NCBI RefSeq assembly: GCF_007859075.1
Contig: NZ_VOAK01000006.1
Span: 1 to 42,926, forward strand
Length of the DNA stretch: 42,926 nucleotides
DNA from: Gemmobacter aquaticus
GTDB taxonomy: Bacteria; Pseudomonadota; Alphaproteobacteria; Rhodobacterales; Rhodobacteraceae
Direction: 5' to 3'
The stretch's first letter is position 1; every line of letters starts with the position of its first letter. The notes below the pieces were generated by a model. That model was not told the origin of the DNA and searched no databases. It saw only the letters and a program-made list of their open reading frames with translations. A program made the translations under genes and the position numbers. Shown here piece after piece: positions 7,292-41,517 of the stretch.

Positions 7292-7309
7292 TGTTTCGCG
7301 CGCGAAACA
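7292..7309. promoter_or_regulatory. parS-like palindrome 1 (end of parB)
   Basis: TGTTTCGCGCGCGAAACA is a perfect 18-bp inverted repeat one base before the parB stop codon end. It has the same outer half-sites (TGTTTC...GAAACA) as the canonical ParB site but a GC-only centre that is 2 bp longer. The same 16-bp core recurs at 8442-8457 and 13759-13774. Site identity as a ParB target is inferred from position beside parB and repetition. Confidence 0.7.
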
Positions 7310-7310
7310 T

Positions 7311-8366
7311 TCAGGCCTGATTGCGCAGCCAGGCCTCCAGCCGGGCGCGGAAGGCGGCGTCGACCCCTGCCCCTTCAAGCACCAGACGATGGCCCTTCAG
7401 TGCGGAAAGGCTGATGCCGGGGGCGATATCCGCGGCCGAAACAGTCTCTGACACGGCCAAATCCGGGGTTTTGGGCGGGGGTGCCATCAGGCGGGCCAGC
7501 AGCACCTGTTCGGCGGCAGGATCGGGTGGGCTGGCGTCTGCAAGAGCCGCGCGCATCCGGGGGCCGAGGCCCGCATCGCCCTCCAGCGCCTGCGCCAGTT
7601 GCAGGCCCAGCCGTTCGCCGATCGCCTCGGGGAAGCGCAGGGCGCCATCCAGCGCGCGCACCACCGTCAGGAACGAGCCGATCTTTGACCGCTTGGGCCG
7701 CGAGGCGGTGGCGAAGAGTGCACGCAGGGCCGCGCGGTCATCCGGATAAACCCCGGCCTCGACCGCCTTCAGCGCGATGCGGGCGCGTTCATAGAACGAC
7801 AGGCCCACGCGGATCTCATTTTCCTCGACCATCGCGACATAGGCATCCGAGGCCTGTTCGGGCCTGCGCTGCAGGGCGAGGACATGGCCGAAGCGCGCCT
7901 CGCCGGTCTCGGCCTGCAGGCTGGCCAGCGCCCGCAGCCGCCGCCAGCCAGAGATCAGCCCGTAGCGGTCCGGGCCGATCTGGGTGACCTCGATCGGGGT
8001 CTGCTGGCCACGGGCGCGCAAGCTCTCGGTCAGGGCCGCCATTTCCTCGGGGTCTGTCGCGAGGCGGTCGCGCACCAGATAGCCGGCCTCGACCTGATCC
8101 AGCGACAGCTGCAGCACCATCCGGCCATTCTCGCGGGCGCGGCGCAGGGTCTCGGCCATCTCCTCCATCGCGGCGGTGGCGGCGGCGGCACCGGCCATAT
8201 CGGCAATCGGGGCCGGACGCCCCTCAGGCCGGGTATAGGTATGCCCGCCGGCATAGCCCATGGGGTAGGTCGGAAAGGATTTGGTTTCCAGAACCGGCAT
8301 CTCGTCACCGGCATCCAGGGCGGTTTCGGGGGCGCCGAAGGCAGACAGGCGTTTGCGTTTGGCCAT
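7311..8366 (-). CDS. parB: ParB-type partition protein
   Basis: Centromere-binding protein for segregation of the replicon that carries repA. The 351-residue product has a disordered N-terminus, then a ParB/Spo0J nuclease-like (CTP-binding) domain around residues 100-150 with DPEEMAALTESLRARGQQ and ISGWRRLRALASL. The 'GWRR' stands where many ParB proteins have GERR. The helix-turn-helix part begins near VEENEIRVGLSFYERARIAL. The C-terminus is typical of plasmid ParB of Rhodobacteraceae. It is downstream of parA by 131 bp with a GGAG site 7 nt before ATG, and is flanked on both sides by the GTTTC...GAAAC palindrome, its probable target. Confidence 0.9.
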   Translation of the reverse strand: MAKRKRLSAFGAPETALDAGDEMPVLETKSFPTYPMGYAGGHTYTRPEGRPAPIADMAGAAAATAAMEEMAETLRRARENGRMVLQLSLDQVEAGYLVRDRLATDPEEMAALTESLRARGQQTPIEVTQIGPDRYGLISGWRRLRALASLQAETGEARFGHVLALQRRPEQASDAYVAMVEENEIRVGLSFYERARIALKAVEAGVYPDDRAALRALFATASRPKRSKIGSFLTVVRALDGALRFPEAIGERLGLQLAQALEGDAGLGPRMRAALADASPPDPAAEQVLLARLMAPPPKTPDLAVSETVSAADIAPGISLSALKGHRLVLEGAGVDAAFRARLEAWLRNQA

Positions 8367-8441
8367 GGATCAGCTCCGCTTGAGGGGGCGACAGAATGGG
8401 GCAGGGGGCATGAACGCATCCCTGCGTGGGCGGACGGTGAT

Positions 8442-8457
8442 GTTTCGCGCGCGAAAC
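8442..8457. promoter_or_regulatory. parS-like palindrome 2 (between parA and parB)
   Basis: GTTTCGCGCGCGAAAC, a perfect 16-bp inverted repeat in the parA-parB gap, about 75 bp upstream of the parB start. Beyond partition it could allow ParB to control parB expression. Confidence 0.7.
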
Positions 8458-8497
8458 GCACAGGCGAAAACAGTCCCCAAATACATCCTCAAAAACG

Positions 8498-9892
8498 TCA
8501 CTGTGCGGCCTCTTTCGCAAGATCCAGCTCATCCCGCCGCCAGCTGCCGAGGATCAGCGCCTTCACCGCGGCCCAGGTCTCGTCAAAGGTCTCGCGGCCG
8601 CGGGCATAGGTCTCGCGGTTGAAGTCGCGATAGTCGGCCTCGTAGATCCCGCGCACCTGCTCGCCCGCCTGGCCGATCAGCGCGGTAAAGTCCTGCCGGT
8701 GCGGCGACAGCGTCTTGCCCATCCAGCCCTGCATCAGCGCCGCAAGCTCGGCCTGCTGGGCCCCGTCATAGCGGGTGATCAGCGCGCGTACCGCGTCCCA
8801 TTCAAAGTTCAGCTCAGGCCGGCCAAGCGCGCGAGCGGCCATGTTCTCGCCCTCCTCGATCGAGCGGAAGGTCGAATGCAGCATGTCGAAGAAGCGGCCC
8901 GTGCTGTCGAATTCCAGAAACGAGGCCCCCATCGGCACCAGAAGGATATCCGCCGCCGCAAGGCCGTTGATCGTCAGGTAGCCAAGCGCGGGCGGGGTAT
9001 CGAGGAAGATCACGTCATACTGGTCAAGCACGCCGTCGGCGGCCAGAACCTCGGTCAGGGCATCCCACAGCTTCCAGCCGCGCGACTGCATGCGCCAGAC
9101 CGGGATCTGGAATTCGGCCCAGTAGAGGTTCAGCTGTGCCCCGATCAGGTCGATGTTGGGCCAGTGGGTTTTCTGGATCAGGCTCTCGGCCTTGACCGTC
9201 AGCGCCTCGGTTAGCGTCTCGTCCAACGGGATCGGCGCATCGCCCCGGTCAAGCCTGCGCTGGTTGTCCAGCCGCAGATGCTGGGCGTAATGGCGGGCCA
9301 GCATCGGGAAGACGGTCTGCCATTCATCCTCGACCCGCCCGCCGAAGATCGAGGTCATCGACCCCTGGCTGTCGAGGTCGATCACCAGCACCCGGTAGCC
9401 ATCGAGCGCGGCTGACATCGCCAGATGCGCGCAGGTCGAGGTCTTGCCGACCCCGCCCTTGAAGTTCGCAACCGCCAGCATCTTGGCCGGCAGCCCTTTG
9501 GGGCGCCAGGGCAGGTAGGGCTTGGCCTTTGACCCCTCGGCCGCAAAGAAAGCGCGCAGCCGCAGAACCTCATCCAGCGTGAACCACTTGGCCCCGCCAT
9601 CGGTTTCGGACGCGCCCTGCGGCAGGTCGGGGTTTTGCTTCAGCACGCGCCGGAAATGCGCCTGCCCGACCGGGATCAGGTAGCGCGTGATCTCCCATGT
9701 GGAGAAGAGACGCAGCCGCCGACTGCCGGTCTCATCAAGCCCGCGCCCCGCAAGATCGGCCCGACCGGTTTCGCAGGCCCGCGCGATCTGGCCAAAGCTC
9801 TCGGTCGTGGTGGGGGCTCCAAGTGCCGCCAGCGCCGCATCGGGGTCGATGGCGAAATAGGGGGGAAGGGGTGCTGCTGCCTCGGGCTTCAT
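8498..9892 (-). CDS. parA: ParA-type partition ATPase
   Basis: Walker-type ATPase that moves ParB-bound DNA. About 135 N-terminal residues include a helix-turn-helix-like stretch (TWEITRYLIPVGQAHFRRVL), as in plasmid type Ia ParA proteins that also repress their own operon. The ATPase domain then starts with the deviant Walker A FKGGVGKTS (144-152) and DLDSQG (172-177). The start at 9892 is preferred: its ATG has GAGG 5 nt upstream; a longer reading from a TTG at 9931 is possible. It is divergent from repA across the origin. The 464-residue length fits large plasmid ParA proteins. Confidence 0.9.
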   Translation of the reverse strand: MKPEAAAPLPPYFAIDPDAALAALGAPTTTESFGQIARACETGRADLAGRGLDETGSRRLRLFSTWEITRYLIPVGQAHFRRVLKQNPDLPQGASETDGGAKWFTLDEVLRLRAFFAAEGSKAKPYLPWRPKGLPAKMLAVANFKGGVGKTSTCAHLAMSAALDGYRVLVIDLDSQGSMTSIFGGRVEDEWQTVFPMLARHYAQHLRLDNQRRLDRGDAPIPLDETLTEALTVKAESLIQKTHWPNIDLIGAQLNLYWAEFQIPVWRMQSRGWKLWDALTEVLAADGVLDQYDVIFLDTPPALGYLTINGLAAADILLVPMGASFLEFDSTGRFFDMLHSTFRSIEEGENMAARALGRPELNFEWDAVRALITRYDGAQQAELAALMQGWMGKTLSPHRQDFTALIGQAGEQVRGIYEADYRDFNRETYARGRETFDETWAAVKALILGSWRRDELDLAKEAAQ

Positions 9893-10048
9893 CTGCGCCT
9901 CATGTGCTGTGTTTTTCTCATCATACCGCAAAACGTGGCATATGGAAGAAAAGACATCACACGGCAGGATTTTCTCAGCTGATTCTGTGGCTTGGGCTGG
10001 GTGACCCCATAGGGCAGGGGGTGCTTATGGACGCAAGCTTGCCATCCT

Positions 10049-10074
10049 CCGCAAGTCATGTGCGGATTTTTTTT
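10049..10074 (+). terminator. Hairpin plus T-run in the repA leader
   Basis: CCGCA/TGCGG (10049-10053 with 10061-10065), 7-nt loop, followed by A and eight Ts on the plus strand. No plus-strand gene ends before it, because parA runs the other way. It therefore looks like a terminator of a short RNA, or an attenuator in the leader of repA, whose start is 244 bp further on. Confidence 0.55.
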
Positions 10075-10169
10075 GTTAGAGCGATGTTATCTTATTTGTT
10101 ACGGGAGCCAAGGCTTTCCTGCAGCGTCTTGTTTTCATTGGTCAAATGCGGGTGCCTTTCTGCTGCACC

Positions 10170-10235
10170 GACTCTGATCCCCCGATCCTGCGACTCTGAT
10201 CCGCCGCTGAGGTGACTCTGATCCGCCAATCGGCG
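10170..10235 (+). repeat. Three 22-bp-spaced iterons
   Basis: GACTCTGATCC occurs at 10170, 10192 and 10214, each copy exactly 22 bp from the next (two helical turns). The other 11 bp of each unit vary. This is the expected arrangement of binding sites for a plasmid replication initiator and lies 83 bp before repA. Confidence 0.85.
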
Positions 10236-10249
10236 TGCTGGACGCGGCC

Positions 10250-10258
10250 TGTGGATAA
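10250..10258 (-). promoter_or_regulatory. Consensus DnaA box
   Basis: TGTGGATAA is the exact complement of the DnaA box TTATCCACA. It sits between the iterons and the repA start, so the host DnaA probably helps initiation. Confidence 0.8.
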
Positions 10259-10317
10259 TTCTAGGCTGGGTGTCACTGAAACCCCGATAGAAAACGGGGG
10301 CGGACATCGAGGCAGTC

Positions 10318-11376
10318 ATGGCGGGACAGGCGGTGGCGGGGGGCATCCCCGTCCGCAGACCGGGTATCGGTCGGGGGGGCGTATCCACCCCCGCGGCGAT
10401 CGGCGATCTTTTCATCTGTGACGTCTTCGGGGCGAGCCCGAAGGACGATCTGGGCACGATGGAACATCCGATCTTTTCGCTCTCTACCAAGCCCGACCGG
10501 CGCATCCTGAAATACGAACACAACGGCACGCAGGTCGAGGTCATCCCCTCGGTCAAGGGACGGGCCACGATCCATGACAAGGACATCCTGATCTATTGCA
10601 TCAGCCAGCTGATGGCGGGGCTGAACGCGGGCCGCGAGGTCAGCCGCACCCTGCAGCTCAAGGCGCATGACCTGCTGCTGGCCACGCGCCGCGACACCGG
10701 GGGTGACAGCTATCTGCGGCTGCGCGAGGCCTTCGAGCGTCTGGCCGGCACCCGCATCACCACCAATATCGTGACAGGGGGCATCGAGGCCACCAGCGGC
10801 TTCGGCCTGATCGAAAGCTGGGAGATCCTGCGCAAGACGCGGGGCGGACGGATGATCTCGGTCATGGTCACGCTTTCGGAATGGCTGTTCCGCGCGGTTC
10901 TGGGCCGGTCGGTGCTGACGCTCTCGCCCGAGTATTTCGGGCTCAGGAAACCGCTGGAGCGGCGGGTCTATGAACTGGCGCGCAAACATTGCGGGCGGCA
11001 ACCGGAATGGCGGATCTCGGTCGGCACGCTGCACAAGAAGTCCGGCTCTGCCGCGCCCGTGCGGGTGTTCCGCGCCGCGATCCGCAAGATGATCGAAGAG
11101 GCACCCTTGCCCGATTATGCCATGACCGAGGAGCCGGGCGACATGATCCGCTTCACCCGCGCCGGCGTGATCGAGGAGGACGGCCCCGACTTCAGCGCCC
11201 CCCGCATGGACCCCGGCGCCCTCGATGCCGCCCGCGCGCTGGCCCCCGGTGCCGATGTCTATGCGCTCGAGGCCGAATGGCGCGCCTTCTGGGTCGCTTC
11301 GGGGCGGCCACGGCTGTCGGCGCCCGACCGGGCCTTCCTTGGCTGGGTGCGGGCACGGATGCTGCCAAAGGGTTAA
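10318..11376 (+). CDS. repA: Plasmid replication initiator protein A (RPA family)
   Basis: Initiator that binds the upstream iterons and starts replication. The 352-residue product has the family block with FICDVFGASPKDDLGTMEHPIFSLSTKPD (about residues 32-60), followed by YEHNGTQVEVIPSVKGRATIHDKDILIYCISQLMAGLN and the later winged-helix-like LERRVYELARKHCG. This is the 'replication initiator protein A' family that defines DnaA-like or RepA-type replicons of Rhodobacteraceae. It is divergent from parAB, as usual in that replicon class. The first about 30 residues are poorly conserved, so the exact start is less certain. Presence of repA and parAB shows that this region is, or was, an autonomous replicon. 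Confidence 0.92.
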   Translation: MAGQAVAGGIPVRRPGIGRGGVSTPAAIGDLFICDVFGASPKDDLGTMEHPIFSLSTKPDRRILKYEHNGTQVEVIPSVKGRATIHDKDILIYCISQLMAGLNAGREVSRTLQLKAHDLLLATRRDTGGDSYLRLREAFERLAGTRITTNIVTGGIEATSGFGLIESWEILRKTRGGRMISVMVTLSEWLFRAVLGRSVLTLSPEYFGLRKPLERRVYELARKHCGRQPEWRISVGTLHKKSGSAAPVRVFRAAIRKMIEEAPLPDYAMTEEPGDMIRFTRAGVIEEDGPDFSAPRMDPGALDAARALAPGADVYALEAEWRAFWVASGRPRLSAPDRAFLGWVRARMLPKG

Positions 11377-11455
11377 GGGCGCGCGCGCGGGCTAGGGGGG
11401 GCCTTAACCGCGCCTGCGGATGGTCGGGCCGACCGCATCCCGCAGGAGCCCCGCA

Positions 11456-12697
11456 ATGCCCGATACCTCGCCGAACCTCGTTCTGCCCTATCTGATGCCC
11501 AGTCAGGCGCAGAAGCACGTGACCCATAACGAGGCGCTGCAGCTGCTGGATGCCGTCGTGCAGCTGACGGTCGAGGCCTTTGGCGCCACGACGCCGCCCG
11601 CCAGCCCCGCCGCCGGGCAGGTCTGGGCGCTTGGGCCCTCGCCCGGCGGGGCATGGGCAGGGCAGGGGCGCAGGCTTGCCGCGCGGATCGGCGGGGACTG
11701 GGTTTTCATCGACCCGCTGGAGGGCTGGCGGGCCTGGGGCCGGGCCGAGGCCGAGCTGCGCGTCTGGCGTGGCACCCTATGGGACCGCCTGCCGCTGCAG
11801 AACCTCGATGGTCTGGGCATTGCCAGTGTCTATGACACCACCAACCGGCTGTCGGTGGCCAGCCCCGCCACGCTGCTGACCCATGCGGGCGGGGGGCATC
11901 AGCTGAAGATCAACAAGGCGGGGCCGGGCCAGACCGCCTCTCTGCTCTATCAGACCGACTGGTCGGGCCGGGCCGAGATGGGGCTCGCGGGGGGTGACAA
12001 CTTTTCGGTCAAGGTCAGCGCCGATGGTGTCACTTGGGCCGAGGCGCTGGTGGCGGATCGCACGACCGGCCGGCTGCGCCTGCCCGGCGGCGCGCGCCTG
12101 CCCGATGGCGATGCGGAAACCCCCGCGCTGGCCTTTGACAATGGCAGTGGCGTGGGTCTTTTCCGCCCGGCTTCGGGGCAGATGGGCTTTGCGACAGGCG
12201 GGGTGCAGCGCGCGCTTCTCGGCGGCACGGCGCTGCAGCTTGACGTGCCGCTGACCGGCGCCGCAGTGACGGCAAGTGCGACGGATACAACGGCGGGCCG
12301 GGTGCTGCGGGTGGGGGCGGGCTGGCCGCAGCTCGATGCCACGCTCTACCGGCAGGGGAACCTTCTGGGCACGGTCAGCCAGAGCGCGGGCGCCCCCACC
12401 GGCGCGGTGATCGAGCGCGGCAGCAACGGGGGTGGCGACTATGTCCGCTTTGCCGATGGTACGCAGATCTGCACCGCAACCCTGACGGGCTCGACCTCGG
12501 CCGCGGTCGGCTGGACCTATCCCATGGCCTTTGCCGCCGCCCCTTGTGTCACCGGCACGGCGCAGGCTGCGGTCCTTGCCTGTGTCATGCTGGACAGCGC
12601 CCCCTCGGCCTCGGCCGCCAGTCTTTCGGTGCGCGACAAGCTGGATGCCCGCCGGGCCGATCCCATGCGGCTGATGGCCGTGGGGCGCTGGTTCTGA
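11456..12697 (+). CDS. DUF2793 domain protein (phage tail/GTA-like)
   Basis: A 413-residue protein whose N-terminus (NLVLPYLMPSQAQKHVTHNEALQLLDAVVQLTVE) is the DUF2793 signature found in phage and gene-transfer-agent structural genes of Rhodobacteraceae. The middle is Gly/Ala-rich and repetitive in style like a fibre. The C-terminal part, about FADGTQICTATLTGS onward, resembles receptor-binding or tail-fibre ends. Start at 11456 is set by AGGAG 9 nt upstream; an in-frame ATG at 11420 is less likely. It follows repA by 79 bp on the same strand, and its stop codon abuts the stop codon of convergent rmlA with no spacer. Its function in this locus is unknown; no other phage gene is nearby, so it may be a surface protein recruited to the coat locus. 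Confidence 0.75.
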   Translation: MPDTSPNLVLPYLMPSQAQKHVTHNEALQLLDAVVQLTVEAFGATTPPASPAAGQVWALGPSPGGAWAGQGRRLAARIGGDWVFIDPLEGWRAWGRAEAELRVWRGTLWDRLPLQNLDGLGIASVYDTTNRLSVASPATLLTHAGGGHQLKINKAGPGQTASLLYQTDWSGRAEMGLAGGDNFSVKVSADGVTWAEALVADRTTGRLRLPGGARLPDGDAETPALAFDNGSGVGLFRPASGQMGFATGGVQRALLGGTALQLDVPLTGAAVTASATDTTAGRVLRVGAGWPQLDATLYRQGNLLGTVSQSAGAPTGAVIERGSNGGGDYVRFADGTQICTATLTGSTSAAVGWTYPMAFAAAPCVTGTAQAAVLACVMLDSAPSASAASLSVRDKLDARRADPMRLMAVGRWF

Positions 12698-13573
12698 TCA
12701 GCGGTCGAGCAGCGCGGCCAGATAGCTGCCGTAGGCGGTCTTGCCAAAAAGCCGCGCCCGCGCTGCCAGTTGGTCGGGCGTGATCCAGCCTTGGGCAAAG
12801 GCGATCTCTTCGGGGCTGCCCACCTGCTGGCCCTGCCGCTCGGTCAGCGTGCGCACAAAGTTCCCGGCATCCAGCAGGCTGGCATGGGTGCCGGTATCGA
12901 GCCAGGCAAAGCCGCGACCCATCTGCTCGACCGAGAGCAGCCCTTCGGCCAGATACATCTCCAGAAGCGTCGTGATCTCCAGCTCGCCGCGGGGCGAGGG
13001 CTGAACCTCGCGCGCCCGGGCAGATGCGGTGCCGTCGAGGAAATAAAGCCCGGTCACCGCGTAATGCGAGGGCGGCTTGGCGGGCTTTTCAACGATGCGG
13101 TTCACCCGGCCGTCCGCGTCAAAGCCCACCACGCCATAGCGCTCCGGGTCCACCACGCGATAGCCGAAGACCGTGCCCCCCGTGGCGCGGGCGTCGGCGC
13201 GGGCCAGCATCTCGGGCAGGCCATGGCCGAAGAAGATATTGTCGCCCAGCACCATGGCCGAGGGCGCGCCGGCCAGGAAATCTTCGGCCAGCAGATAGGC
13301 CTGCGCCAGACCATCGGGCGAGGGCTGCTCGATATAGCTGAGGTGTAGCCCCCACTGGCTGCCATCGCCCAGCGTGCGGCGGAACTGGTCCTGATCCTGA
13401 GGGGTGGTGATGATCGCGATCTCGCGGATGCCCGACAGCATCAGCACCGAAAGCGGGTAGTAGATCATCGGCTTGTCATAGATCGGCAGCAGCTGCTTTG
13501 AGACGCCGATGGTGATCGGATAAAGCCGTGTGCCCGATCCGCCTGCCAGGATGATGCCCTTGCGTGCCGTCAT
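12698..13573 (-). CDS. rmlA: Glucose-1-phosphate thymidylyltransferase
   Basis: First step of dTDP-L-rhamnose synthesis: dTTP plus glucose-1-phosphate to dTDP-glucose. The 291-residue product has the nucleotidyl-transferase loop ILAGGSGTRLYP (8-19), KQLLPIYDKPMIYYPLS and GDNIFFGHGL, as in RmlA throughout. It is the last gene of the kpsM-rmlC-rmlB-rmlD-rmlA run, beginning one base after the rmlD stop. Allosteric control by dTDP-rhamnose is known for the family. Confidence 0.96.
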   Translation of the reverse strand: MTARKGIILAGGSGTRLYPITIGVSKQLLPIYDKPMIYYPLSVLMLSGIREIAIITTPQDQDQFRRTLGDGSQWGLHLSYIEQPSPDGLAQAYLLAEDFLAGAPSAMVLGDNIFFGHGLPEMLARADARATGGTVFGYRVVDPERYGVVGFDADGRVNRIVEKPAKPPSHYAVTGLYFLDGTASARAREVQPSPRGELEITTLLEMYLAEGLLSVEQMGRGFAWLDTGTHASLLDAGNFVRTLTERQGQQVGSPEEIAFAQGWITPDQLAARARLFGKTAYGSYLAALLDR

Positions 13574-13574
13574 G

Positions 13575-14423
13575 TCAAATGCCCTTCAGTTCTGAAATCA
13601 CCCGGGCCAGGCCGGCCCGCCAGTCCGGTTGCGTAATCCCGAAATCCGCCGCCAATGCGGAGCAATCGAGGCGGGAATTGAGCGGGCGGCGCGCCGGTGT
13701 GGGATAGGCTGCCGAGGGAATATCCTCGACCGTGACCGCCATCCCGGCCTGCGCGAATGTTTCGCGCGCGAAACCGGCCCAGCTGGTCTCTGGCGCGCCT
13801 GCGTAGTGATGTGTGCCGCCCGTGGCGCCGTCGCGCAAGGCGCGGGCCAGCGCAAGGCAGGTCGCTGCGATATCGGCCGCAGGCGTCGGCCCGCCGATCT
13901 GGTCGGCCACGACGCGCAAGGTAGGGCGGTCAGCGCCAAGCCGCAGCATGGTCTTCACGAAATTCGCACCATGGCTTGAGAACACCCATGAGGTGCGCAG
14001 GATCACATGGGATCCCCCTGCGGTCCGCACCGCCGCTTCGCCTGCAAGCTTCGTGCGGCCATAGGCGCCAAGCGGGGCGGTCGGGTCATCGGGGGCCCAG
14101 GGACGGCTGCCCGATCCGTCGAACACATAATCGGTGGAGATATGGACGATCGGTGCGCCCAGATCGGCGCAGGCCCGGGCCATGGCGCCGGGGGCCTGCC
14201 CGTTCACCAGAGCCGCCGCATCCTCTTCGGTCTCGGCCCGGTCCACCGCCGTCCAGGCGGCGGCGTTGATCACCGCATCGGGGCGGTGCGTCCGGATCGC
14301 CGCGGCGCAGGTGTCGGGGCTGGCAAGGTCTGCCTGATCGCGCCCCAGAAAGATCGCCTGCGGGGCAAGGCGCTGCAGTTCCGTCGCCACTTGGCCGGTG
14401 CGGCCGAAGACCAGCACCCTCAT
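13575..14423 (-). CDS. rmlD: dTDP-4-dehydrorhamnose reductase
   Basis: Last step of dTDP-L-rhamnose synthesis, NAD(P)H reduction of the 4-keto sugar. The 282-residue short-chain reductase has [13 protein letters not shown] at the N-terminus, [10 protein letters not shown], and the catalytic YGRTK. Start 14423 is fixed by the Rossmann motif and by the ATGA overlap with the rmlB stop codon; the open frame extends 26 codons upstream inside rmlB. Unusually, codons for GFARETF contain the third copy of the GTTTC...GAAAC palindrome (13759-13774), so this gene carries a candidate ParB site within its coding sequence. Confidence 0.96.
13759..13774. promoter_or_regulatory. parS-like palindrome 3, inside rmlD
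   Basis: GTTTCGCGCGCGAAAC, identical over 16 bp to the two sites beside parB, 5.3 kb from the nearest of them, inside coding DNA. An exact 16-bp palindrome match by chance in a window of this size is very unlikely, so it is probably a real binding site. Confidence 0.6.
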
Positions 14424-15469
14424 GCCGAGGTTCCCAGCCGTTCGCCCACGCCCTTGCGCGCCAGCAGGGGCTGCCACCAGTCGGCATTGTCGAGATACCA
14501 TTGCACCGTGCGCTCCAGCCCCTCTTCCACCGTCACGCTGGGCTGCCAGCCCAGCTCGGCGCGGATGCGGCTTGGGTCGATGGCATAGCGCGCGTCATGG
14601 CCGGGGCGGTCGGTCACGAAGGTGATCTGGTCGGCATAAGAGCCCGTGTTCTTTGGCCGCTTCGCATCAAGGATCGCGCAGAGCGTCTGCACCAGCTCAA
14701 GGTTCGTCCGCTCGTTCTCGCCGCCGATGTTGTAGCTGCGGCCCAGGGCGCCCTTTTCCAGCACCAGAAGCAGCGCATCGGCATGATCCTCGACATAAAG
14801 CCAGTCGCGGATGTTCGACCCGTCGCCATAGATCGGCAGCGGTTTTCCGGCCAGCGCATTGAGGATGATCACCGGGATCAGCTTTTCGGGGAAATGGTAG
14901 GGCCCGTAATTGTTGGAGCAGTTGGTCAGCACCACCGGCAGGCCATAGGTCTCGGCCCAGGCCCGGACCAGATGGTCCGAGGCCGCCTTCGAGGCCGAAT
15001 AGGGACTGCGCGGGTCATAGGGGGTGGTTTCGGTGAACTTCACCGACGGGTCGGCCGGCAGGGACCCGAAGACCTCGTCGGTCGAGATGTGGTGAAAGCG
15101 GAACCCGACCGGCTTGCCCGCGCGTGTCCAATGGGCGCGCGCGGCCTCGAGCATGTTGTAGGTGCCGTTCACATTGGTCTCGATGAAGGCGCCCGGCGCG
15201 TCGATCGAGCGGTCCACATGGCTCTCGGCGGCCAGATGCATCACCGCATCCGGTTTATGCGCGGCAAAGATCCGGTCCAGTGCCGCCCGGTCACGGATAT
15301 CGGCGCGCTCGAATGCATAAAGCGGGCTCGACGCCACGCTTGCCACGTTTTCAAGGCAGGCGGCATAGGTCAGGCAATCGACATTGACCACATGATGGCC
15401 CCGCGCCACTGCCTGCCGCACCACGGCCGAACCGATGAAGCCCGCCCCCCCGGTCACCAGAATCTTCAT
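14420..15469 (-). CDS. rmlB: dTDP-glucose 4,6-dehydratase
   Basis: Second step of dTDP-L-rhamnose synthesis, NAD-dependent dehydration of dTDP-glucose. The 349-residue product has GGAGFIGS (7-14), [12 protein letters not shown], the active-site [10 protein letters not shown] and YSASK, and [15 protein letters not shown], all RmlB hallmarks. It starts 3 bp after rmlC and overlaps rmlD by ATGA, so the operon is translationally coupled. Confidence 0.97.
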
Positions 15470-15472
15470 CTC

Positions 15473-16027
15473 TCAGCCCTCGCAGACAAACGGCGTGACA
15501 AAATCGGCCAGGGCCGGCGCCGCGGCATCCTTGGCCGAGAGCACCGGCTCGCCCGTCAGCCCCCAGTCGATCCCGACCGAGTTCCAGGCCACCGCCCCGT
15601 CACAGTCGGGCGCATAGTAATCGCTGCACTTGTAGACGATCTCGGTATCGTCGGCCCGTGTGACAAATCCGTGCAGGAAGCCCGCCGGGATCAGCAGTTG
15701 CCGGCCGTTCTCGGCCGAAAGCTCGACCCCCACCCACTGGCCATAGGTGGCAGAGCCGCGGCGGATATCCACCGCCACATCGTACAGCGCGCCGCGCCCG
15801 CAGCGCACCAGCTTGGCCTGGGCATGGGGGGGGGACTGGAAGTGCAGCCCCCGCAGGGTACCCGCCCGCGCCGAGACCGAATGGTTGTCCTGCACGAAAT
15901 CGATGTCGATGCCGGCCTCTGCCAGACGCCGGCGACTCCAGCTTTCGGAAAAGAAGCCGCGCGCATCGCCGAAACGTGCGGGCGTCAGGATCACCACGCC
16001 GGGAAGGGAGGTCTGCTCGATCTGCAA
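15473..16027 (-). CDS. rmlC: dTDP-4-dehydrorhamnose 3,5-epimerase
   Basis: Third step of dTDP-L-rhamnose synthesis, a cofactor-free double epimerisation. The 184-residue cupin has RFGDARGFFSESW, QDNHSVS, catalytic His in LRGLHFQ (H62), PAGFLHGF, and the Tyr-rich YKCSDYY, as in RmlC. The only start that keeps the conserved N-terminus is a TTG at 16027, with a weak AAAGG upstream, so a non-ATG start is likely. It is 79 bp downstream of kpsM on the same strand. Confidence 0.94.
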   Translation of the reverse strand: MQIEQTSLPGVVILTPARFGDARGFFSESWSRRRLAEAGIDIDFVQDNHSVSARAGTLRGLHFQSPPHAQAKLVRCGRGALYDVAVDIRRGSATYGQWVGVELSAENGRQLLIPAGFLHGFVTRADDTEIVYKCSDYYAPDCDGAVAWNSVGIDWGLTGEPVLSAKDAAAPALADFVTPFVCEG

Positions 16028-18971: not shown

Positions 18972-20303
18972 TCAGCGCTTTACAAGGCGGCGCGCCGCCC
19001 GTGCGACCCGTCGGGCCTGATGCTCCAGACGTTCAAACAGCGGCGCAGGCTGGTGCGAGATCGGCCTCTGTGGGCCAGCGCCCGCCTGTTGTATGACCTG
19101 CTTGGGACGGGGCATGCGGGTTTCGACCACAAGCCCGTGTGCGGCCATCGCAGCAGAGAATTCGGTGTGGCGCTGCCGGTAGCGGCGCTTCATCCTGTTC
19201 AGGACATCGTCGTTCAGGCACTCATCCAGAGTTTTGGCGAGCCCCCAACGGGCAAAACGGTTGATTGACACTGCAGGCAGGCCGAAATGCTCGGTAAGCT
19301 CGGCGACGCGGTTGTCTTCTTTCAGGAAGATGGCCGGACGCCCCGCCTGCAAGACCGCAACCCCACCATGGAACCGGTCACCAATGAAGACATCATGGCG
19401 CAAGGCGGCCTGGCGCCATGACCCGGCCTCGGTGAAATAGTAGTATCGGCGGAAATCGACAGGCATACCGCAGAGCCGGCTGAGCCAGCTATTCAGCGGG
19501 CCGGCTGCACATTCATTGCTGCCTTCATTGTAGAGGAAAGCCTGATTGGGCAAATCGCCATAGGCAAAGATTTCGTCCTGGAACACATAAGAGGCATCAA
19601 TGCCGCTGAAGGCCCGCGCCAGTTCGATCCCGCGTGAGACAATCCGTTTGTCATGAACGCTCAGGTGGCCGGCGGTCATCACGTCGGCGGCCGCTCCCTT
19701 GGCCCGCGCCGCGCTTCCGTCAATCGACAGGATGGACTGCGGATAGGCATAAAGGCTGGGGCAGCCGAGCACCGTGGCATTGGTAAAGCCATTTGTGCTT
19801 AGCCATTCTGCCGTCCGGTTGCCGCGCACCCCGAACAGCGCCGCCCTCTCGTTCATGATCGCGATCAGGTCGCGGTTGCTGGGCATCATGGCCGACAGCG
19901 GGTGGTTCCCCTGCAATCCTGCGCCAAGGACAATGATCTTCACGGCGCCGTCCAATGCATTGATTGCATTGAATAGTGCCGCACCATCATGATCCGGGCG
20001 GATGAAATTGGCCATTGAAATGACAATGATGTCGAAGTTTTCGGCCATTTCCTCGCGGAAACGCGGTGCCAGTGCCTTGCTCAGAGCTGCCAGGTTTCCA
20101 TAAGCCGAATGTGTGTAATCCTTGCGCAGGATCTTCACTGGGGCTTCGGCATGGATGATGTTGCCACGATTGCCCGTCAGTTTGTGCGTAGCCTGCAGAC
20201 CGCCCAGCGTATCTGTCGCCGTCGCCTGCACCCCAAGAAGGCGCGGCATCTGCATTTCGGGGCGAAAGGCAGCGAGGCCAGGGGCATGAAATAGGATGCG
20301 CAT
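18972..20303 (-). CDS. Polysaccharide pyruvyl transferase family protein
   Basis: Probably adds pyruvate ketals from phosphoenolpyruvate to a polysaccharide, giving negative charge. The 443-residue product shows the family C-terminal block DVFIGDRFHGGVAVLQAGRPAIFL (conserved D-R-HG) and the preceding RGIELARAF and VLGCPSLYAYP elements. A basic, Pro/Gln-rich tail of about 60 residues follows. It is the last gene of a four-gene operon (cysD, cysNC, sulfotransferase, this), 24 bp after the sulfotransferase. GC content by eye is lower than in the rml genes. CsaB-like family membership is clear; substrate is unknown. Confidence 0.82.
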   Translation of the reverse strand: MRILFHAPGLAAFRPEMQMPRLLGVQATATDTLGGLQATHKLTGNRGNIIHAEAPVKILRKDYTHSAYGNLAALSKALAPRFREEMAENFDIIVISMANFIRPDHDGAALFNAINALDGAVKIIVLGAGLQGNHPLSAMMPSNRDLIAIMNERAALFGVRGNRTAEWLSTNGFTNATVLGCPSLYAYPQSILSIDGSAARAKGAAADVMTAGHLSVHDKRIVSRGIELARAFSGIDASYVFQDEIFAYGDLPNQAFLYNEGSNECAAGPLNSWLSRLCGMPVDFRRYYYFTEAGSWRQAALRHDVFIGDRFHGGVAVLQAGRPAIFLKEDNRVAELTEHFGLPAVSINRFARWGLAKTLDECLNDDVLNRMKRRYRQRHTEFSAAMAAHGLVVETRMPRPKQVIQQAGAGPQRPISHQPAPLFERLEHQARRVARAARRLVKR

Positions 20304-20327
20304 CTGTGGCTTTGTGTCCCGCTCGGT

Positions 20328-21194
20328 TCAGTTGGTTGCATAAAGCCGCATCAGCAGGCTGTGCAGCTTTCGGTCATTGTGGCAGCGCGCCTCGATGTGC
20401 TTGATCAGGTCGGCGGGTGGTGCTTCGTCCTCTGACGCCTTGCCGATGTTCTCGCGGAACTCTTGTGGCTTGGGCAGCCCGTGTGACCGGGCCAGATGGG
20501 CGAGCGAAGCTGAGAGATGTTCGGTCACCCCAAGGAAGGTATAGTGATTTATCAGCTTGGTCAGGACGTTCTCGAACGAACACACCATGCCAAGTGCCTG
20601 CGTGACCTGCACATCGTACGGAATCTGCTGCACATAGGCATCAAGGGTCGGGAACCGGTTGCGGAACCCTTCGTTGTCGGGATGGGCGGCCGAGCAGTTG
20701 TAGTGGTAATTGGAAATCGTTCGCGCCACCGGATCGCGCAGGATCGTGCCGCATTTCATCGGCATCTCGTGGTTGCGCCAGACCTGCAGCTCGGGCCAGC
20801 CGTAATGGCCCATGATCACCTGCCGCGCCCGGCCCTGTGATTGCAGATAGATCGCCTCGCGCGTCTGATTGCGGAAGGATTTGACGACGTCCTGCCAGTG
20901 CACGCCGCGGAATATGTCAAAGGTTTCCTGAAAGCTGCGTCCGACAGACATGCCGGCCGTCTTGGGGATATGCACGAACAACATGGTATCGGCATCGGCG
21001 CGGAAGCTATCCGGGGCAACGAGCTTCGGCGAGAACCGGTTGACGAAGCGTTCCATCAGGGCATGCGGAACGTCAAATTCCTCGGCGAGGGCACGGCTAT
21101 CCTGGGTCATATCGGTCACGGCTTCACTGGCTGCAGGGCGGACGCGATCAATTGACCGCATCCGCTGGGTAATCCAGTCGCAACGCAAGGGCAA
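20328..21194 (-). CDS. Carbohydrate sulfotransferase family protein
   Basis: Transfers sulfate from PAPS to a glycan. The 5'-phosphosulfate loop MLFVHIPKTAGMSVGRSF (about residues 71-88) and the 3'-phosphate motif LRDPVARTISNYHY mark the Sulfotransfer_2 family. It lies 18 bp downstream of cysNC, whose products make PAPS, so it is almost certainly the user. The start is uncertain: a TTG at 21194 has GGGGAG about 7 nt upstream, while ATGs at 21161 and 21110 lack a clear site; the conserved domain begins well after all of them. No signal peptide is seen, so it acts in the cytoplasm before export. Confidence 0.85.
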   Translation of the reverse strand: MPLRCDWITQRMRSIDRVRPAASEAVTDMTQDSRALAEEFDVPHALMERFVNRFSPKLVAPDSFRADADTMLFVHIPKTAGMSVGRSFQETFDIFRGVHWQDVVKSFRNQTREAIYLQSQGRARQVIMGHYGWPELQVWRNHEMPMKCGTILRDPVARTISNYHYNCSAAHPDNEGFRNRFPTLDAYVQQIPYDVQVTQALGMVCSFENVLTKLINHYTFLGVTEHLSASLAHLARSHGLPKPQEFRENIGKASEDEAPPADLIKHIEARCHNDRKLHSLLMRLYATN

Positions 21195-21212
21195 GTCCCG
21201 CTCCCCGCCGCA

Positions 21213-23141
21213 TCACCCCGCGAGGATCGCCTGCACGATGCGCTCGGCGGCTTCTTCGGCGGTCAGCTCGACCGTGTTCACGGTGAGCTCGGCCAGTTCG
21301 GGGGCCTCGTAGGGGCTGTCGATGCCGGTGAAGTTCTTCAGCTGGCCCGACCGCGCCTTCTTGTACAGGCCCTTCACGTCGCGGGCCTCGGCCACCTCGA
21401 GCGGCGTGTTGACCCAGACCTCCATGAACTCGCCCGGCGCCATCAGGTCGCGCACCATCCGCCGTTCCGACCGGAAGGGCGAGATGAAGGCGGTGAGCAC
21501 GATCAGGCCCGCGTCGGTCATGAGCTTGGCCACCTCGCCCACGCGGCGGATGTTCTCCACCCGGTCGGCATCGGTAAAGCCGAGGTCGCGGTTCAGCCCG
21601 TGGCGCACGTTGTCGCCATCCAGCAGGAAGGTGTGCTTGCCCAAGGCATGCAGCTTCTTTTCCACCAGGTTGGCGATGGTCGACTTGCCCGAGCCCGAGA
21701 GACCCGTGAACCAGACGACGCGCGCCTTCTGGTTTTTCAGCGCGGCATGTGCCTCACGGTTCACGTCGACGGCCTGCCAGTGGATGTTCTGGCTGCGGCG
21801 CAGGGCGAAGTGGATCATGCCGGCGGCGACCGTCGCGTTGGTCATCCGGTCGATCAGGATGAAGCCGCCAAGGTCGGGGTTCGTGGCATAGGCTTCAAAC
21901 GGGATCGCCCGGTCGGTCGAGATGTTCACGACGCCGATCGCATTCAGCCCAAGGGTCTTGGACGCCAGATGTTCCAGCGTGTTGACGTTCACCTCATACT
22001 TGGGTTCGGTCACCGTCGCGGTCACGGTCTGCGTGCCGATCTTCAGAAGGTAGGGACGGCCCGGCAGCATGGCATGCTCGTCCATCCAGACGACGGTCGC
22101 CTCGAACTGATCGGCGACCTCGCAGGGGGCATCGGCCTGCACGATCACATCCCCGCGCGAGCAGTCGATCTCGTCGGCAAAGGTCAGCGTGACCGACTGG
22201 CCCGCGATGGCCTGATCCAGATCGCCGTCAAAGGTGGGGATCGACTTGACCGTGGTGGTCTTGCCCGAGGGCAGGACCCGGATCGCATCGCCCGGCCGCA
22301 CCACGCCCGCCCCGATCTGGCCGGCAAAGCCGCGGAAGTCGAGGTTCGGGCGGTTCACCCATTGCACCGCCATGCGGAAGGACTGGTCCAGCATCCGCGT
22401 GTCGTTGATGGGGGCCTCCTCCAGGTGCTGCAGAAGGGTAGGGCCTTGATACCATGACATTTCATGGCTCTTGGTCGCGATGTTGTCACCCTTCAGGCCA
22501 GAAATCGGAATGGGCAGGAAAGCCTCCATCCCGATCTGCTTGGCGAAATGTGAATAATCCTTCACAATCTCGTAGAAGCGTTCCTGCGAATAGCCCACAA
22601 GGTCCATCTTGTTGATGGCCAGCACGACATTGCGGATGCCTAGAAGCTGCACCAGATAGCTGTGCCGCCGCGTCTGCGTCAGCACGCCCTGCCGCGCGTC
22701 GATCAGGATCACCGCGAGGTCGGCGGTCGAGGCGCCGGTCACCATGTTGCGGGTATACTGTTCATGGCCGGGGGTATCGGCCACGATGAACTTGCGCTTT
22801 TCGGTGGCGAAGAAGCGGTAGGCCACATCGATGGTGATGCCCTGTTCGCGCTCGGCCGCAAGGCCATCGACCAGCAGCGCAAAGTCGATCTCGCCGCCCT
22901 GCGTGCCCACGGCCTTGCTGTCTTTCTCAAGGCTTGCCAGCTGATCTTCAAAGATCATCTTGGTGTCGTAGAGAAGTCGCCCGATCAGCGTCGACTTGCC
23001 GTCATCCACCGACCCGCAGGTGATGAAGCGCAGCATGGTCTTGTGCTGGTGTTTCAGAAGATAGGCGTCGATGTCCTCGGCGATCAGGGCGTCGGTGACA
23101 TAGACCGGGTTTTGTGTGCCAGCGTTCATTTCGGTGGTCAT
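21213..23141 (-). CDS. cysNC: Bifunctional sulfate adenylyltransferase large subunit / APS kinase (CysN-CysC fusion)
   Basis: With CysD it makes APS from ATP and sulfate using GTP, then phosphorylates APS to PAPS. The 642-residue protein has a GTPase domain with G1 GSVDDGKST (43-51), G3 DTPGH (122-126) and G4 NKMD (177-180), then beta-barrel domains, then an APS kinase domain from about residue 472 with GLSGSGKST (480-488) and [15 protein letters not shown]. The organisation is that of NodQ and of CysNC in bacteria that sulfate glycans. It overlaps cysD by one base and is followed by a sulfotransferase, so the operon likely feeds sulfation. A role in ordinary sulfur assimilation is also possible. 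Confidence 0.96.
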
Positions 23142-24073
23142 CAGAAATACCCCTCCTGCTTCTTCTTCTCCATCGAGGCCGACTGGTCATGGTCGATGGC
23201 GCGGCCCTGGCGTTCCGAGGTCGTGGTCAGCAGCATTTCCTGAATGACTTCGGGAAGGGTGCGGGCATTCGACTCCACCGCGCCGGTCAGCGGATAGCAG
23301 CCCAGCGTGCGGAACCGGATCGAGCGCATCTCGGGCGTCTCGCCGGGCAGAAGCGGGAAGCGCTCGTCATCGACCATCAGCAGAAGGCCATTGCGTTCCA
23401 CCGTGGGGCGCGGCTCGCTGAAGTAAAGCGGCACGATCTCGATGCCTTCCAGATGGATGTACTGCCAGATGTCAAGCTCGGTCCAGTTCGAGATCGGGAA
23501 GACCCGGATGCTCTCACCCTTGGACTTGCGGGTATTGTACAGCTTCCACAGCTCGGGGCGCTGGTTCTTGGGGTCCCAGCGGTGGTTGGCCGAGCGGAAC
23601 GAGAACACCCGCTCTTTCGCGCGGGATTTTTCCTCGTCGCGGCGCGCGCCACCGAAGGCCACGTCGAAATCGTATTTCGTCAGGGCCTGCTTCAGCCCCT
23701 CGGTCTTCCACATGTCGGTGTGCAGCGGGCCGTGGTCAAAGGGATTGATGCCCTTTTCCAGCGCTTCGGGGTTGTGGTGGACGATCAGGTCCATCCCGGC
23801 GTCCTTGGCGGCCTTGTCGCGCAGGTCATACATCGCCCGGAACTTCCAGGTGGTGTCGACATGCAGAAGCGGGAAGGGCGGCGGCGCCGGGTAGAAGGCC
23901 TTCTTCGCCAGATGCAGCATGCAGGCGCTGTCCTTGCCCACCGAATAAAGCATGACGGGGTTTTCGGCATTGGCCACCACCTCGCGCATGATGTGGATGC
24001 TTTCGGCCTCAAGCCGTTGCAGGTGGGTCAGCGTGGCCTGGCTGATCCCGGCCGTGGCGCTGCTCGTCGTCAT
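23141..24073 (-). CDS. cysD: Sulfate adenylyltransferase small subunit
   Basis: ATP-pyrophosphatase-type subunit that forms APS together with CysN. The 310-residue product has the PP-loop SVGKDSACM (44-52), [29 protein letters not shown], and the C-terminal [15 protein letters not shown], all typical of CysD. The start 24073 is set by AAGGGG upstream; the frame is open 13 codons further. First gene of the operon cysD-cysNC-sulfotransferase-pyruvyltransferase. Confidence 0.96.
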
Positions 24074-24410
24074 GGAGGACCCCTTCAAAATTGGCTGCTG
24101 GCGCTTTGGCAAATTTTTCGCTCTGCTCCAAGGGGCAGAGGGGTGTTTCGCTCGGGTTGTGGCGAAAAAAGCCTCTTTTCTACGCAGGCGGGCCTTTGTC
24201 GCCGTCCTGCCGAAGGGGCGTGCCGGGGATCAATCTCCGCAGCGGGCGGCAGCGCATGGAACATGGTTCTTATTTCAGGCTGCGCGCGCATATGTAACAT
24301 AATCTTCATTCTGGGTGATTTTCGGGGCGCGTGGCGGGCGCAACCCTCGCCCTTTACGCGTCAGGCCCCGCCGATTAGACAGACCTCGTCAGAATGCATT
24401 GGAAAAGATC
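24074..24410. other. Divergent promoter region cysD / ugd
   Basis: 337 bp with no supported gene. It must hold promoters for both cysD and ugd. Two inverted repeats stand out: CTCTGC...GCAGAG at 24121-24140, 48 bp upstream of cysD, and TATGTAACATA at 24291-24301 in an AT-richer stretch, which could be an operator. No regulator can be assigned. Confidence 0.5.
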
Positions 24411-33991: not shown

Positions 33992-36262
33992 ATGGCAACC
34001 AGATTTGTTGAATGGGACGAATGTGAAGTGCCCAAATGCGACGTGGATCTTTCCAGGGCCGGCGGCAACAACCAGGTCACCGGAACGGGTACCGTAGGGG
34101 ACGATCAGGTCGACCTGCGGCTGCGGGGCTCGGCCGACAATTACAACGGCCGCGAAGGCGATGACTTCATCATCGGCAATGGCGACAACAACAAGCTTCT
34201 CGGCTCGGACGGTTGCGACACCCTCTTTGGCATGGGCGGCGGCGACAAGATCAAGGGCGGCAATGACAAGGACCTGATCTATGGCGATGACGGCCATGGC
34301 AGCAATAGCGAAGGCAACGACTGCCTCGATGGCGACGCGGGCAACGACACCATATTTGGTGAAGGCTACAACGACCGCATCGACGGTGGCACCGAAAACG
34401 ACCTGATCTATGGCGACTATGATCCGGCCGATACCAACAGCCCCAACCGTGTCGAAGGCAATGACGGCATCCTGGGTGGTGAAGGCGACGACACCGTCTT
34501 TGGCGGTGGCGGCAATGACGTGATCATCGGCGACGACGCCGACGCGTACTCGCTCGATGACGGCCATGACAAGCTTTACGGCGGTGCAGGCAATGACTGC
34601 ATGGCAGGCGAGGCCGGCAATGACTGCATGTGGGGCGAAGACGGCGACGACACCATGTATGGCAACGAAGGCAATGACGGCATGTCCGGCGGCGCCGGAA
34701 ATGACCGCATGTCGGGCGGCCTCGACCATGACTTCATGGATGGCGGCGATGGCGATGACGAGATGTTCGGCGACCTGCGTCAGGGCCGGGCGACCGACCT
34801 CGACATCGGCTCGGATACCTGGACCGGTGGCACGCAGTTCGAGTTTGCGGGCGGGTCGGACATCATGTTCGGCGGCACCGGCGGCGACTATATGGACGGT
34901 GGTGCGGCGACCGACCTCCTCTATGGGGAATCCGGTGAAGACCGCATGTTCGGTGGCCGTGGCGCCGACTATCTGTCGGGTGGCGCGGACGACGACTCCA
35001 TGATGGGCGACGAGGCGGGCGATCTGATGCGCGGTGGCTCGGGCGATGACTGGATGCGCGGCGGCGCTGGCGACGACGTCATCTTCGGCGATCAGGGCAC
35101 CTCGGCGGAACGCCGCGCGCGGCTTGTCGAGGTTGACAATGAAACCTGCGTGCGCGCCTCGGAAGACGAGGATGGCGGCCCGGATGGCGACGACCTGATC
35201 CTTGGCGGAGACGGCAACGATCTGATCTACGGCCAGGGTGGCCATGACGAGATCTATGGCGGCAAGGCCCAGGACACGATCTTCGGCAACGATGGCGACG
35301 ATCAGATCGATGGCGATGCTGGCAATGACCTGATCGAAGGCAACGACGGCAACGACACGATCCACGGCGGCACCGGCAACGACACCGCCGAAGGCAACGA
35401 CGGCAATGACGCCATCTATGGCGACGACGGCAATGACCTGCTGTCGGGCAACGATGGCAACGACTGGATGTCGGGCGGCAATGGCGATGACACCATGGAC
35501 GGCGGAACCGGCAATGATGTCATGTATGGCGATGCCGGCAACGACACCATGTATGGCCATACCGGCAACGACTGGATGTCGGGTGGCACCGGCAACGACT
35601 GGATGTCGGGTGGTGCTGGCAATGACACCATCTATGGCGACGACGGCAATGACCTCCAGTATGGTGATGACGGCAACGACTGGATGTCGGGCGGCAACGG
35701 CAACGACACCGTGAACGGCGACGCCGGTGATGACGTGATGTTCGGCGATGCGGGCCATGACGTGCTGAACGGTGGCGGCGGTGCCGATACGATCAGCGGC
35801 GGAACCGGAAGCGACGATCTGAACGGCGGCGGCGGCGATGACGTGCTGAACGGCAATAACGGAGAGGACTTCCTGCATGGCGGTGCCGGCGACGACAAGC
35901 TGACCGGCGGCGACGGCAAGGACGTCTTCGAGGTGCACCTGACCTGGGATGGCAAGGGCTTCACCTCCTCCGATGGCAGCGACGTGGTCTATGATTTCGA
36001 CATGGATCATGACGCCGATGTCGTCACCTTCGTCATTGACGGCGCGGATGGTGTTTCGGCAACGGCACTGTTCAATGCCCTGAATGCGGCGGCGACGGTC
36101 ACCGACAATGGCACCAACACCACCATCTCGGTCGGCGGGGCCTCGTTGCGGTTGCTAAATGTCTCGGCGAACCATCCGTTCAACTTCGACTCGCTGGAAG
36201 GCATCAACGACTTCAGCGATGGCAACTATCTCTATGAAGCCATCGACATCGTGATCGTCTGA
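33992..36262 (+). CDS. RTX calcium-binding repeat protein, type I secreted
   Basis: A 756-residue acidic protein exported by the transporter encoded just downstream. Residues 1-52 are a short unique head; 53-645 are about 30 or more GGxGxDxUx nonapeptide repeats that bind calcium and fold outside the cell; 646-756 are an RTX C-terminal domain ending in the hydrophobic DIVIV, the usual type I secretion signal. There is no N-terminal signal peptide, and no enzyme or toxin domain, so it is probably a structural, adhesive or surface-scaffold protein. Methionine often fills the hydrophobic repeat position (NDWMSGG). A break at about 368-400 (TSAERRARLVEVDNETCVRAS) interrupts the repeats. Seven cysteines (11, 16, 75, 111, 203, 212, 386) are unusual for the family. 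Confidence 0.93.
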   Translation: MATRFVEWDECEVPKCDVDLSRAGGNNQVTGTGTVGDDQVDLRLRGSADNYNGREGDDFIIGNGDNNKLLGSDGCDTLFGMGGGDKIKGGNDKDLIYGDDGHGSNSEGNDCLDGDAGNDTIFGEGYNDRIDGGTENDLIYGDYDPADTNSPNRVEGNDGILGGEGDDTVFGGGGNDVIIGDDADAYSLDDGHDKLYGGAGNDCMAGEAGNDCMWGEDGDDTMYGNEGNDGMSGGAGNDRMSGGLDHDFMDGGDGDDEMFGDLRQGRATDLDIGSDTWTGGTQFEFAGGSDIMFGGTGGDYMDGGAATDLLYGESGEDRMFGGRGADYLSGGADDDSMMGDEAGDLMRGGSGDDWMRGGAGDDVIFGDQGTSAERRARLVEVDNETCVRASEDEDGGPDGDDLILGGDGNDLIYGQGGHDEIYGGKAQDTIFGNDGDDQIDGDAGNDLIEGNDGNDTIHGGTGNDTAEGNDGNDAIYGDDGNDLLSGNDGNDWMSGGNGDDTMDGGTGNDVMYGDAGNDTMYGHTGNDWMSGGTGNDWMSGGAGNDTIYGDDGNDLQYGDDGNDWMSGGNGNDTVNGDAGDDVMFGDAGHDVLNGGGGADTISGGTGSDDLNGGGGDDVLNGNNGEDFLHGGAGDDKLTGGDGKDVFEVHLTWDGKGFTSSDGSDVVYDFDMDHDADVVTFVIDGADGVSATALFNALNAAATVTDNGTNTTISVGGASLRLLNVSANHPFNFDSLEGINDFSDGNYLYEAIDIVIV
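34148..35926 (+). repeat. RTX nonapeptide repeat tract
   Basis: About 27-bp units encoding GGxGxDxUx repeats. Adjacent copies can be nearly identical: 35561-35587 and 35588-35614 match at 26 of 27 bases. The tract is likely prone to copy-number change by recombination. Confidence 0.9.
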
Positions 36263-36280
36263 ACGCGAAGACACAGGATC

Positions 36281-36352
36281 GCCCGGCCCCGTGATACCGC
36301 GGGGCCGGGCCCCCCTTGCCGGAAGGGGGCGATTTCCCCCGGCCCGGCCCCG
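36281..36352 (+). promoter_or_regulatory. Competing hairpins between RTX and exporter genes
   Basis: Arm A GCCCGGCCCCG (36281-36291) pairs with B CGGGGCCGGGC (36300-36310). C CCCCCTT (36311-36317) pairs with D AAGGGGG (36323-36329). Arm F (36342-36352) repeats A exactly and can pair with B instead, and CCCCC at 36336-36340 can pair with D. The exporter's ribosome-binding site AAGGGG (36361-36366) is complementary to CCCCTT in C. The region lies between the RTX stop (36262) and the exporter start (36373). At least it should lower exporter expression relative to RTX; switching is inference. Confidence 0.6.
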
Positions 36353-36372
36353 CTTTCATGAAGGGGCGTTTG

Positions 36373-41390: not shown

Positions 41391-41463
41391 TGACCTTCTG
41401 GAAGGCAGAAATGCCAGATTCTGGAGTCTCCTAAAACATTAATCTCTGTCAGGAGATAGTATA

Positions 41464-41517
41464 ATGGCCCAGGCTCAGGCACTGTCTGTGTTCAAGCGTG
41501 CTCTCTGCACGCAATAG
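41464..41517 (+). CDS. Possible 17-residue leader peptide
   Basis: AGGAG precedes ATG at 41464, opening MAQAQALSVFKRALCTQ then TAG. The ribosome-binding site sits in AGGAGA (41451-41456), which can pair with TCTCCT (41427-41432). A terminator-like hairpin follows at 41526-41557. There is no plus-strand gene after it, so a leader-peptide role has no target in the window; it may be chance. Confidence 0.2.
   Translation: MAQAQALSVFKRALCTQ

Follow-up and report, generated by a model that had tools for sequence, protein, structure and literature searches.

Copies of the partition site parS inside protein-coding genes near the replication genes are already known for repABC plasmids (PMC9040568). 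According to that report, repABC parS in Rhodobacterales is a 16-bp palindrome with GTT/AAC ends (consensus GTTNNCNGCNGNNAAC), which occurs in several copies near the replication and partition genes and in further copies within open reading frames (ORFs) located after the replication genes, and its authors hypothesise positive selection of the intragenic copies within coding sequences. RepABC compatibility groups are described as being distinguished by palindromes (PMC5613091, PMC9426580), type I parS sites are reported to carry, in some cases, a few bases between their repeats, with two in the F plasmid (PMC5450999), and KorB of RK2 is presented as a ParB-family CTP (cytidine triphosphate) clamp with 16-bp operators (PMC11790492). 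Here, we consider a 42,926-nucleotide stretch of Gemmobacter aquaticus DNA (the window, which is the entire contig C7 of the host assembly), on which a RepA (RPA)-type replication gene, a parA-parB pair, and a set of rhamnose genes are found together with three copies of the palindrome GTTTCGCGCGCGAAAC. Judging from sequence comparisons, these palindromes are very probably the parS sites used by the ParA-ParB system that the plasmid itself encodes, and the copy inside the rhamnose gene rmlD would serve as an extra docking site.

The first-pass annotation placed identical 16-mers at 7293-7308, 8442-8457, and 13759-13774, and exact matches are indeed present at all three positions. A scan of the whole window at up to three mismatches gave nothing beyond these copies, and no exact copy arose in 100 dinucleotide shuffles of the window. 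The annotation had proposed to count sites on the host chromosome; in the host assembly (3,986,766 bases), every one of the three copies lies on the window contig; the loosened form TTTCGCNNGCGAAA finds no extra sites there, and a reversed control pattern gives 0 matches. The sites and the genes most closely connected with them are as follows.

7292..7309, no strand: putative parS copy 1, TGTTTCGCGCGCGAAACA, a perfect palindrome of 18 bp immediately 3' of parB
8441..8457, no strand: putative parS copy 2, a 16-bp palindrome with left arm TGTTTC, in the parA-parB gap
13758..13774, no strand: putative parS copy 3, within rmlD, in the codons of G-F-A-R-E-T
7311..8366, minus strand: parB, with a predicted CTPase-like N-domain (82-186) and a SopB/P1-ParB-like DNA-binding domain (188-298)
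8498..9931, minus strand: parA, Walker-type partition ATPase (AAA_31, E 9.3e-30)
10318..11376, plus strand: repA, RPA-type replication initiator (PF10134, E 9e-95), longest frame taken
13575..14501, minus strand: rmlD/rfbD, dTDP-4-dehydrorhamnose reductase (PF04321, E 4.9e-99), longest frame taken; hosts parS copy 3

Gene coordinates agree with the earlier statement that the first two copies flank parB and the third falls in rmlD codons. Sites 1 and 2 bracket parB, with 1 bp between the 18-mer of copy 1 (7292-7309) and the parB stop codon, and with copy 2 in the 8367-8497 gap between parA and parB, whereas site 3 is approximately 5.4 kb off, toward the replicase, and is read in rmlD as GGT TTC GCG CGC GAA ACA (G-F-A-R-E-T). 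The outer half-sites had also been equated with the canonical TGTTTC...GAAACA. This is correct for site 1, the only one with both canonical arms, and it fails on the right for site 2 (TGTTTC left, GAAACG right) and site 3 (TGTTTC left, GAAACC right).

The surrounding genes have the make-up of a type I ParABS system. A gene for a Walker-type ParA ATPase adjoins parB, and ParB combines a CTPase-like N-domain with a helix-turn-helix (HTH) DNA-binding domain, an assignment backed by a fold search with its AlphaFold2 model (mean predicted local distance difference test score 83), in which KorB is listed among the matches. The ParB family also conserves GWRR and ENEIR motifs, which we take to be CTP-binding motifs; together with the fold resemblance, they suggest that the window ParB may bind CTP. 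An RPA initiator accompanied by parAB is the arrangement of RepA (RPA)-type Rhodobacterales plasmids, and the same layout is found in D. shibae pDSHI02 and C. sphaeroides plasmid A. Within the plasmid collection, the window is matched best by Gemmobacter fulvus plasmid p5, which shares its layout, including the position of rmlA in the gene order; in p5, AC-centred sites lie by parB and GC-centred ones at distant sites, one of which is in rmlD. In Cereibacter sphaeroides 2.4.1 plasmid A, the fetched 16 kb contain two sites, both between parA and parB.

Like repABC parS, the window site is a 16-bp palindrome with GTT/AAC ends and has copies both near the replication and partition genes and in an ORF; compared by eye, it also fits the loose search form GTTNNNNGCNNNNAAC given for repABC plasmids (PMC9040568). 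However, in the same comparison by eye its bases 6 and 11 deviate from the strict consensus, so that it was not accepted as a RepABC parS; moreover, the central GC is absent in many relatives of the window, and the window replicase is RPA-type rather than RepC. With chromosomal parS (TGTTTCACGTGAAACA, the site of ParB/Spo0J), the window shares the outer arms TGTTTC/GAAACA, complete on both sides at site 1 only, but the window site consists of TGTTTCGC half-sites with a two-base spacer and is 2 bp longer overall. An identity with chromosomal ParB/parS was rejected as well, given that TGTTTCACGTGAAACA occurs 0 times in the window at up to three mismatches; canonical parS is found three times on host contig C22. 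The SopB-sopC system of the F plasmid has a half-site unlike that of the window, and sopC is a tandem array, whereas the window has few, dispersed, single sites. KorB, which the window ParB resembles in fold, differs in being a dedicated silencer that works with KorA.

The parS assignment is supported by conservation beside parB. Among 394 genomes of the family (Rhodobacteraceae) searched for the 16-mer and for ParB, 99 contain GTTTCGCGCGCGAAAC and 245 a ParB match (E 0.001, weak ones counted). Of the 113 listed matches at E 7.1e-61 or below, 13 were skipped and the other 100 supplied the parB loci analysed here, which makes 101 with the window; the fetched loci are stretches of up to 20 kb, not whole plasmids. 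TTTCGC-NN-GCGAAA is found at most 450 bp from the parB match in 91 of the 101 loci (141 sites), while reversed GC and AT control motifs give 0 near and 0 far matches in these loci. The centres of the 141 near sites are GC (89), GT/AC (32), AT (19), or AG (1), the spacer being R|Y in most cases; their consensus can be extended to TGTTTCGCRYGCGAAACA, and the sequence on either side of it is rich in A/T. Relative to parB, 78 of these sites lie on the 3' side, 53 on the 5' side, and 10 inside the ParB match; a site is present on the 3' side in 69 loci and on the 5' side in 44. The remaining ten loci comprise four with GTTTCGC-N-GCGAAAC (a one-base spacer) beside parB, three with near-matches (L077, L138, L142), and three with distant sites only (L075, L105, L111). 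In a separate collection, from which 80 of 392 loci were kept and 15 were already in the set, a site of spacer 1 or 2 lies at most 500 bp from parB in 59 of the 65 further named loci, a few of which are repeats of one organism. Thus, a repeated palindrome near parAB, as expected of type I ParABS, is kept in relatives (91 + 4 of 101 loci; 59 of 65). The earlier description of a variant parS, 2 bp longer and with a GC centre, survives in its first part; since the centre varies across relatives, GC is not diagnostic, and the GC-centred 16-mer was rejected as a signature of the family. At L277:1572, near parB in L094, and at L037:1501, the site sits within longer perfect palindromes of 32-36 bp. 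A text search of the literature returned nothing for the 16-mer, for versions of it with 14 or 18 bases, or for the AT form, although figures and supplements were outside its scope and an earlier description is possible.

The copy in rmlD requires separate treatment, as it could be a codon accident. Homologous rmlD codons were evaluated against a model of synonymous codon choice that uses the codon usage of each group, for 34 genes at RepA loci (window counted) and 59 located away from the fetched parB contigs; the latter are not all proven chromosomal, and the contigs that bear the five core-containing genes among them range from 9 to 159 kb. At RepA loci, the core of the site is present in 13/34 genes (expected 0.66) and the exact 16-mer in 6/34 (expected 0.04), as compared with 5/59 (expected 1.33) and 1/59 (expected 0.01) on other contigs (Fisher 0.0008 for the core). 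The threonine that provides the last C of the arm is found in 8/34 versus 2/59. A quick rmlD tree requires at least 14 gains or losses of the core, which was therefore not inherited as a single block. The Gemmobacter loci at hand provide six rmlD genes (L283 and L287 have none in the stretch). These genes are 73-82% identical, and their longest stretch without variation is the site (19 nt; P 0.006 when codon columns are shuffled, 0.02 when only identical-amino-acid columns are shuffled). It contains five consecutive invariant codons, against 47 codon-invariant columns among 158 conserved degenerate ones overall, and in the codon ahead of the site the amino acid changes while GT is retained. 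These comparisons provide moderate to good evidence that the rmlD site is probably held by selection on DNA. It is rather unlikely that sites 1 and 2 alone are parS and that the rmlD copy simply results from a conserved F-A-R-E protein motif whose common codons happen to be parS-like. FARE is indeed present in 39 of the 59 RmlD proteins from other contigs, with common codons TTC in 47, GCG in 34, and CGC in 40 of the 59, the core exceeds its own expectation on those contigs too (5 vs. 1.33, P 0.01), and the exact 16-mer is also present in rmlD of G390 (L278:874-1785, outside both sets), a genome in which ParB has no match at E 0.001. However, such an origin would not readily account for the enrichment at RepA loci, the threonine usage, or the five invariant Gemmobacter codons, and an extra docking site in rmlD remains the preferred interpretation.

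With regard to spacing, TTTCGC and its complement pair near parB at spacer 1 (11 sites) or spacer 2 (141 sites), and at no other spacer among 0-12. The four RepA loci with a one-base spacer form one clade in a quick ParB tree (Shimodaira-Hasegawa-like approximate likelihood ratio test 95). Another clade, of 16 parAB loci without an RPA replicase found, has a one-base spacer in 10, an AT-centred two-base spacer in 2, and no site found in 4. When the two loci of this ParB family per genome were compared in 17 genomes, their classes differed in 13 and were shared in none, with four left unassigned. The 13 differing genomes are weakly in line with a spacing-based code, the same-cell evidence being weak since most second loci come from another clade. 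In Streptomyces, the distance between half-sites is reported to affect the accumulation of ParT on DNA (PMC12260392). As a tentative and still doubtful extension, half-site spacing might be the partition code in this bacterial family, with the rhamnose genes codon-adapted to an extra centromere. In this tentative scheme, one recognition surface might read the TGTTTC(A/G)C arms, with spacing keeping replicons separate in one cell; possibly, the chromosome uses spacer 0, most other parAB replicons use spacer 1, and most RepA plasmids use spacer 2; and GC, GT, and AT centres could conceivably be sub-classes of the RepA-plasmid spacer 2. When ParB residues were compared with spacing (14 one-base and 88 two-base loci), many columns exceeded the null yet were confounded with one deep clade, and with the four RepA-type one-base loci alone no column passes. 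In D. shibae pDSHI02 (L361:2573-2624), an AT-centred two-base-spacer site lies approximately 30 bp from a one-base-spacer site, just 3' of one parB.

Several results weigh against the reading of the palindromes as parS with an extra copy in rmlD. In addition to the excess of the core in rmlD on other contigs and the G390 gene, a comparison of the rmlD core with plasmid location in pairs drawn from the tree gave a median p of 0.5 (7 starred pairs, low power), and in the Gemmobacter locus L282, from a metagenome-assembled genome, the site is in rmlD only, with none by parB in the fetched stretch. The window ParB scores 24.4 bits with Pfam ParB_N, under the 26.3 cut-off. Both spacings occur near one parB in two loci (L100, L143), so spacing may not be read strictly. 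Residue R223 of ParB is found in 47/50 GC-class and 4/13 AT-class loci (P 0.014 within the HTH), but as a GC-versus-AT specificity residue it was rejected, falling below the whole-protein null with no usable tree-independent pairs. The first-pass annotation had regarded abundance of the 16-mer across unrelated replicons away from parB as contrary to a parS role, and this is partly what is seen: the 16-mer occurs 327 times in the 394 genomes and the reversed control five times, and 128 of the 16-mer copies are inside and 199 outside the fetched parB loci, some of the latter being chromosomal, such as four in G035, taken as Dinoroseobacter shibae.

Such outside copies raise the question of whether the palindromes are transcription-factor operators or a RepA-linked control element rather than parS. 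Site 2 lies between parA and parB, a place fit for autoregulation, and three of the four G035 chromosomal copies (L025, L260, L262) share a conserved segment of approximately 90 bp (86-93% identical). Nevertheless, this explanation appears highly improbable, as the motif follows parB, even at 12 of the 16 second parAB loci without an RPA replicase found, is commoner 3' of parB than 5' of it, and in the host assembly is restricted to the window contig. For the chromosomal copies, captured parS and operators are two possibilities among others. Several other genomes contain 5 to 17 copies, many of them off the fetched parB loci; among 32 such sites checked (a few of which are by parB or in rmlD), 29 are palindromes of at least 18 bp, and among another 14 off-locus sites, seven have no ORF of 80 codons spanning the site.

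The rhamnose genes that host copy 3 are arranged in the order rmlA, rmlD, rmlB, rmlC (12698-16027, minus strand), the longest rmlD frame overlapping rmlB.

12698..13573, minus strand: rmlA/rfbA, glucose-1-phosphate thymidylyltransferase (PF00483)
14420..15469, minus strand: rmlB/rfbB, dTDP-glucose 4,6-dehydratase (PF16363)
15473..16027, minus strand: rmlC/rfbC, dTDP-4-dehydrorhamnose 3,5-epimerase (PF00908)

The first-pass annotation proposed that partition could be tied to rhamnose expression. In a KorB-like version of this idea, the rmlD parS would let ParB spread into and regulate these genes and thereby couple partition to surface polysaccharide. KorB, which is listed by the fold search with the window ParB, is described as silencing distant promoters by CTP-dependent sliding (PMC11790492); this precedent indicates that a relative of ParB can exert control of this type, and nothing beyond that. 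A coupling of this kind is nonetheless unsupported and improbable here. The core is absent from 21 of the 34 rmlD genes at RepA loci, rmlD of C. sphaeroides 2.4.1 plasmid A lacks it although only one gene separates the rhamnose genes there from repA, and 49 of the 62 distant sites fall outside rmlD, all of which argues against a general partition-rhamnose link.

Elsewhere in the window, genes at 18972-24112 for a pyruvyl transferase, a sulfotransferase, an APS kinase fused to an EF-Tu-like GTPase, and a PAPS-reductase-family protein suggest a modified polysaccharide. What looks like a type I secretion unit lies at 33992-39521, where an RTX repeat protein precedes an ABC transporter and an HlyD-family protein. 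G+C reaches its minimum among 2-kb windows at 40001-42000 (0.53), and a baeRF family 8/11 protein is encoded at 41567-42688.

If the palindromes are the parS sites of this plasmid, ParB dimers would dock on inverted half-sites (TGTTTCGC/GCGAAACA) two bases apart, the spacer being purine|pyrimidine in most relatives. By analogy with CTP-dependent ParB proteins, ParB might then close as a clamp and spread on DNA, and ParA would move the ParB complex into daughter cells; the rmlD site, probably maintained by DNA-level selection, would act as an additional ParB docking site and may in this way benefit the plasmid. For the Rhodobacteraceae, in which this plasmid type is common, the comparison offers a consensus for locating parS and natural ParB-site pairs that differ solely in spacer length or centre. 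It also adds what is probably an example of a protein-coding gene that contains a centromere, which shows itself in the constraint on its codons.
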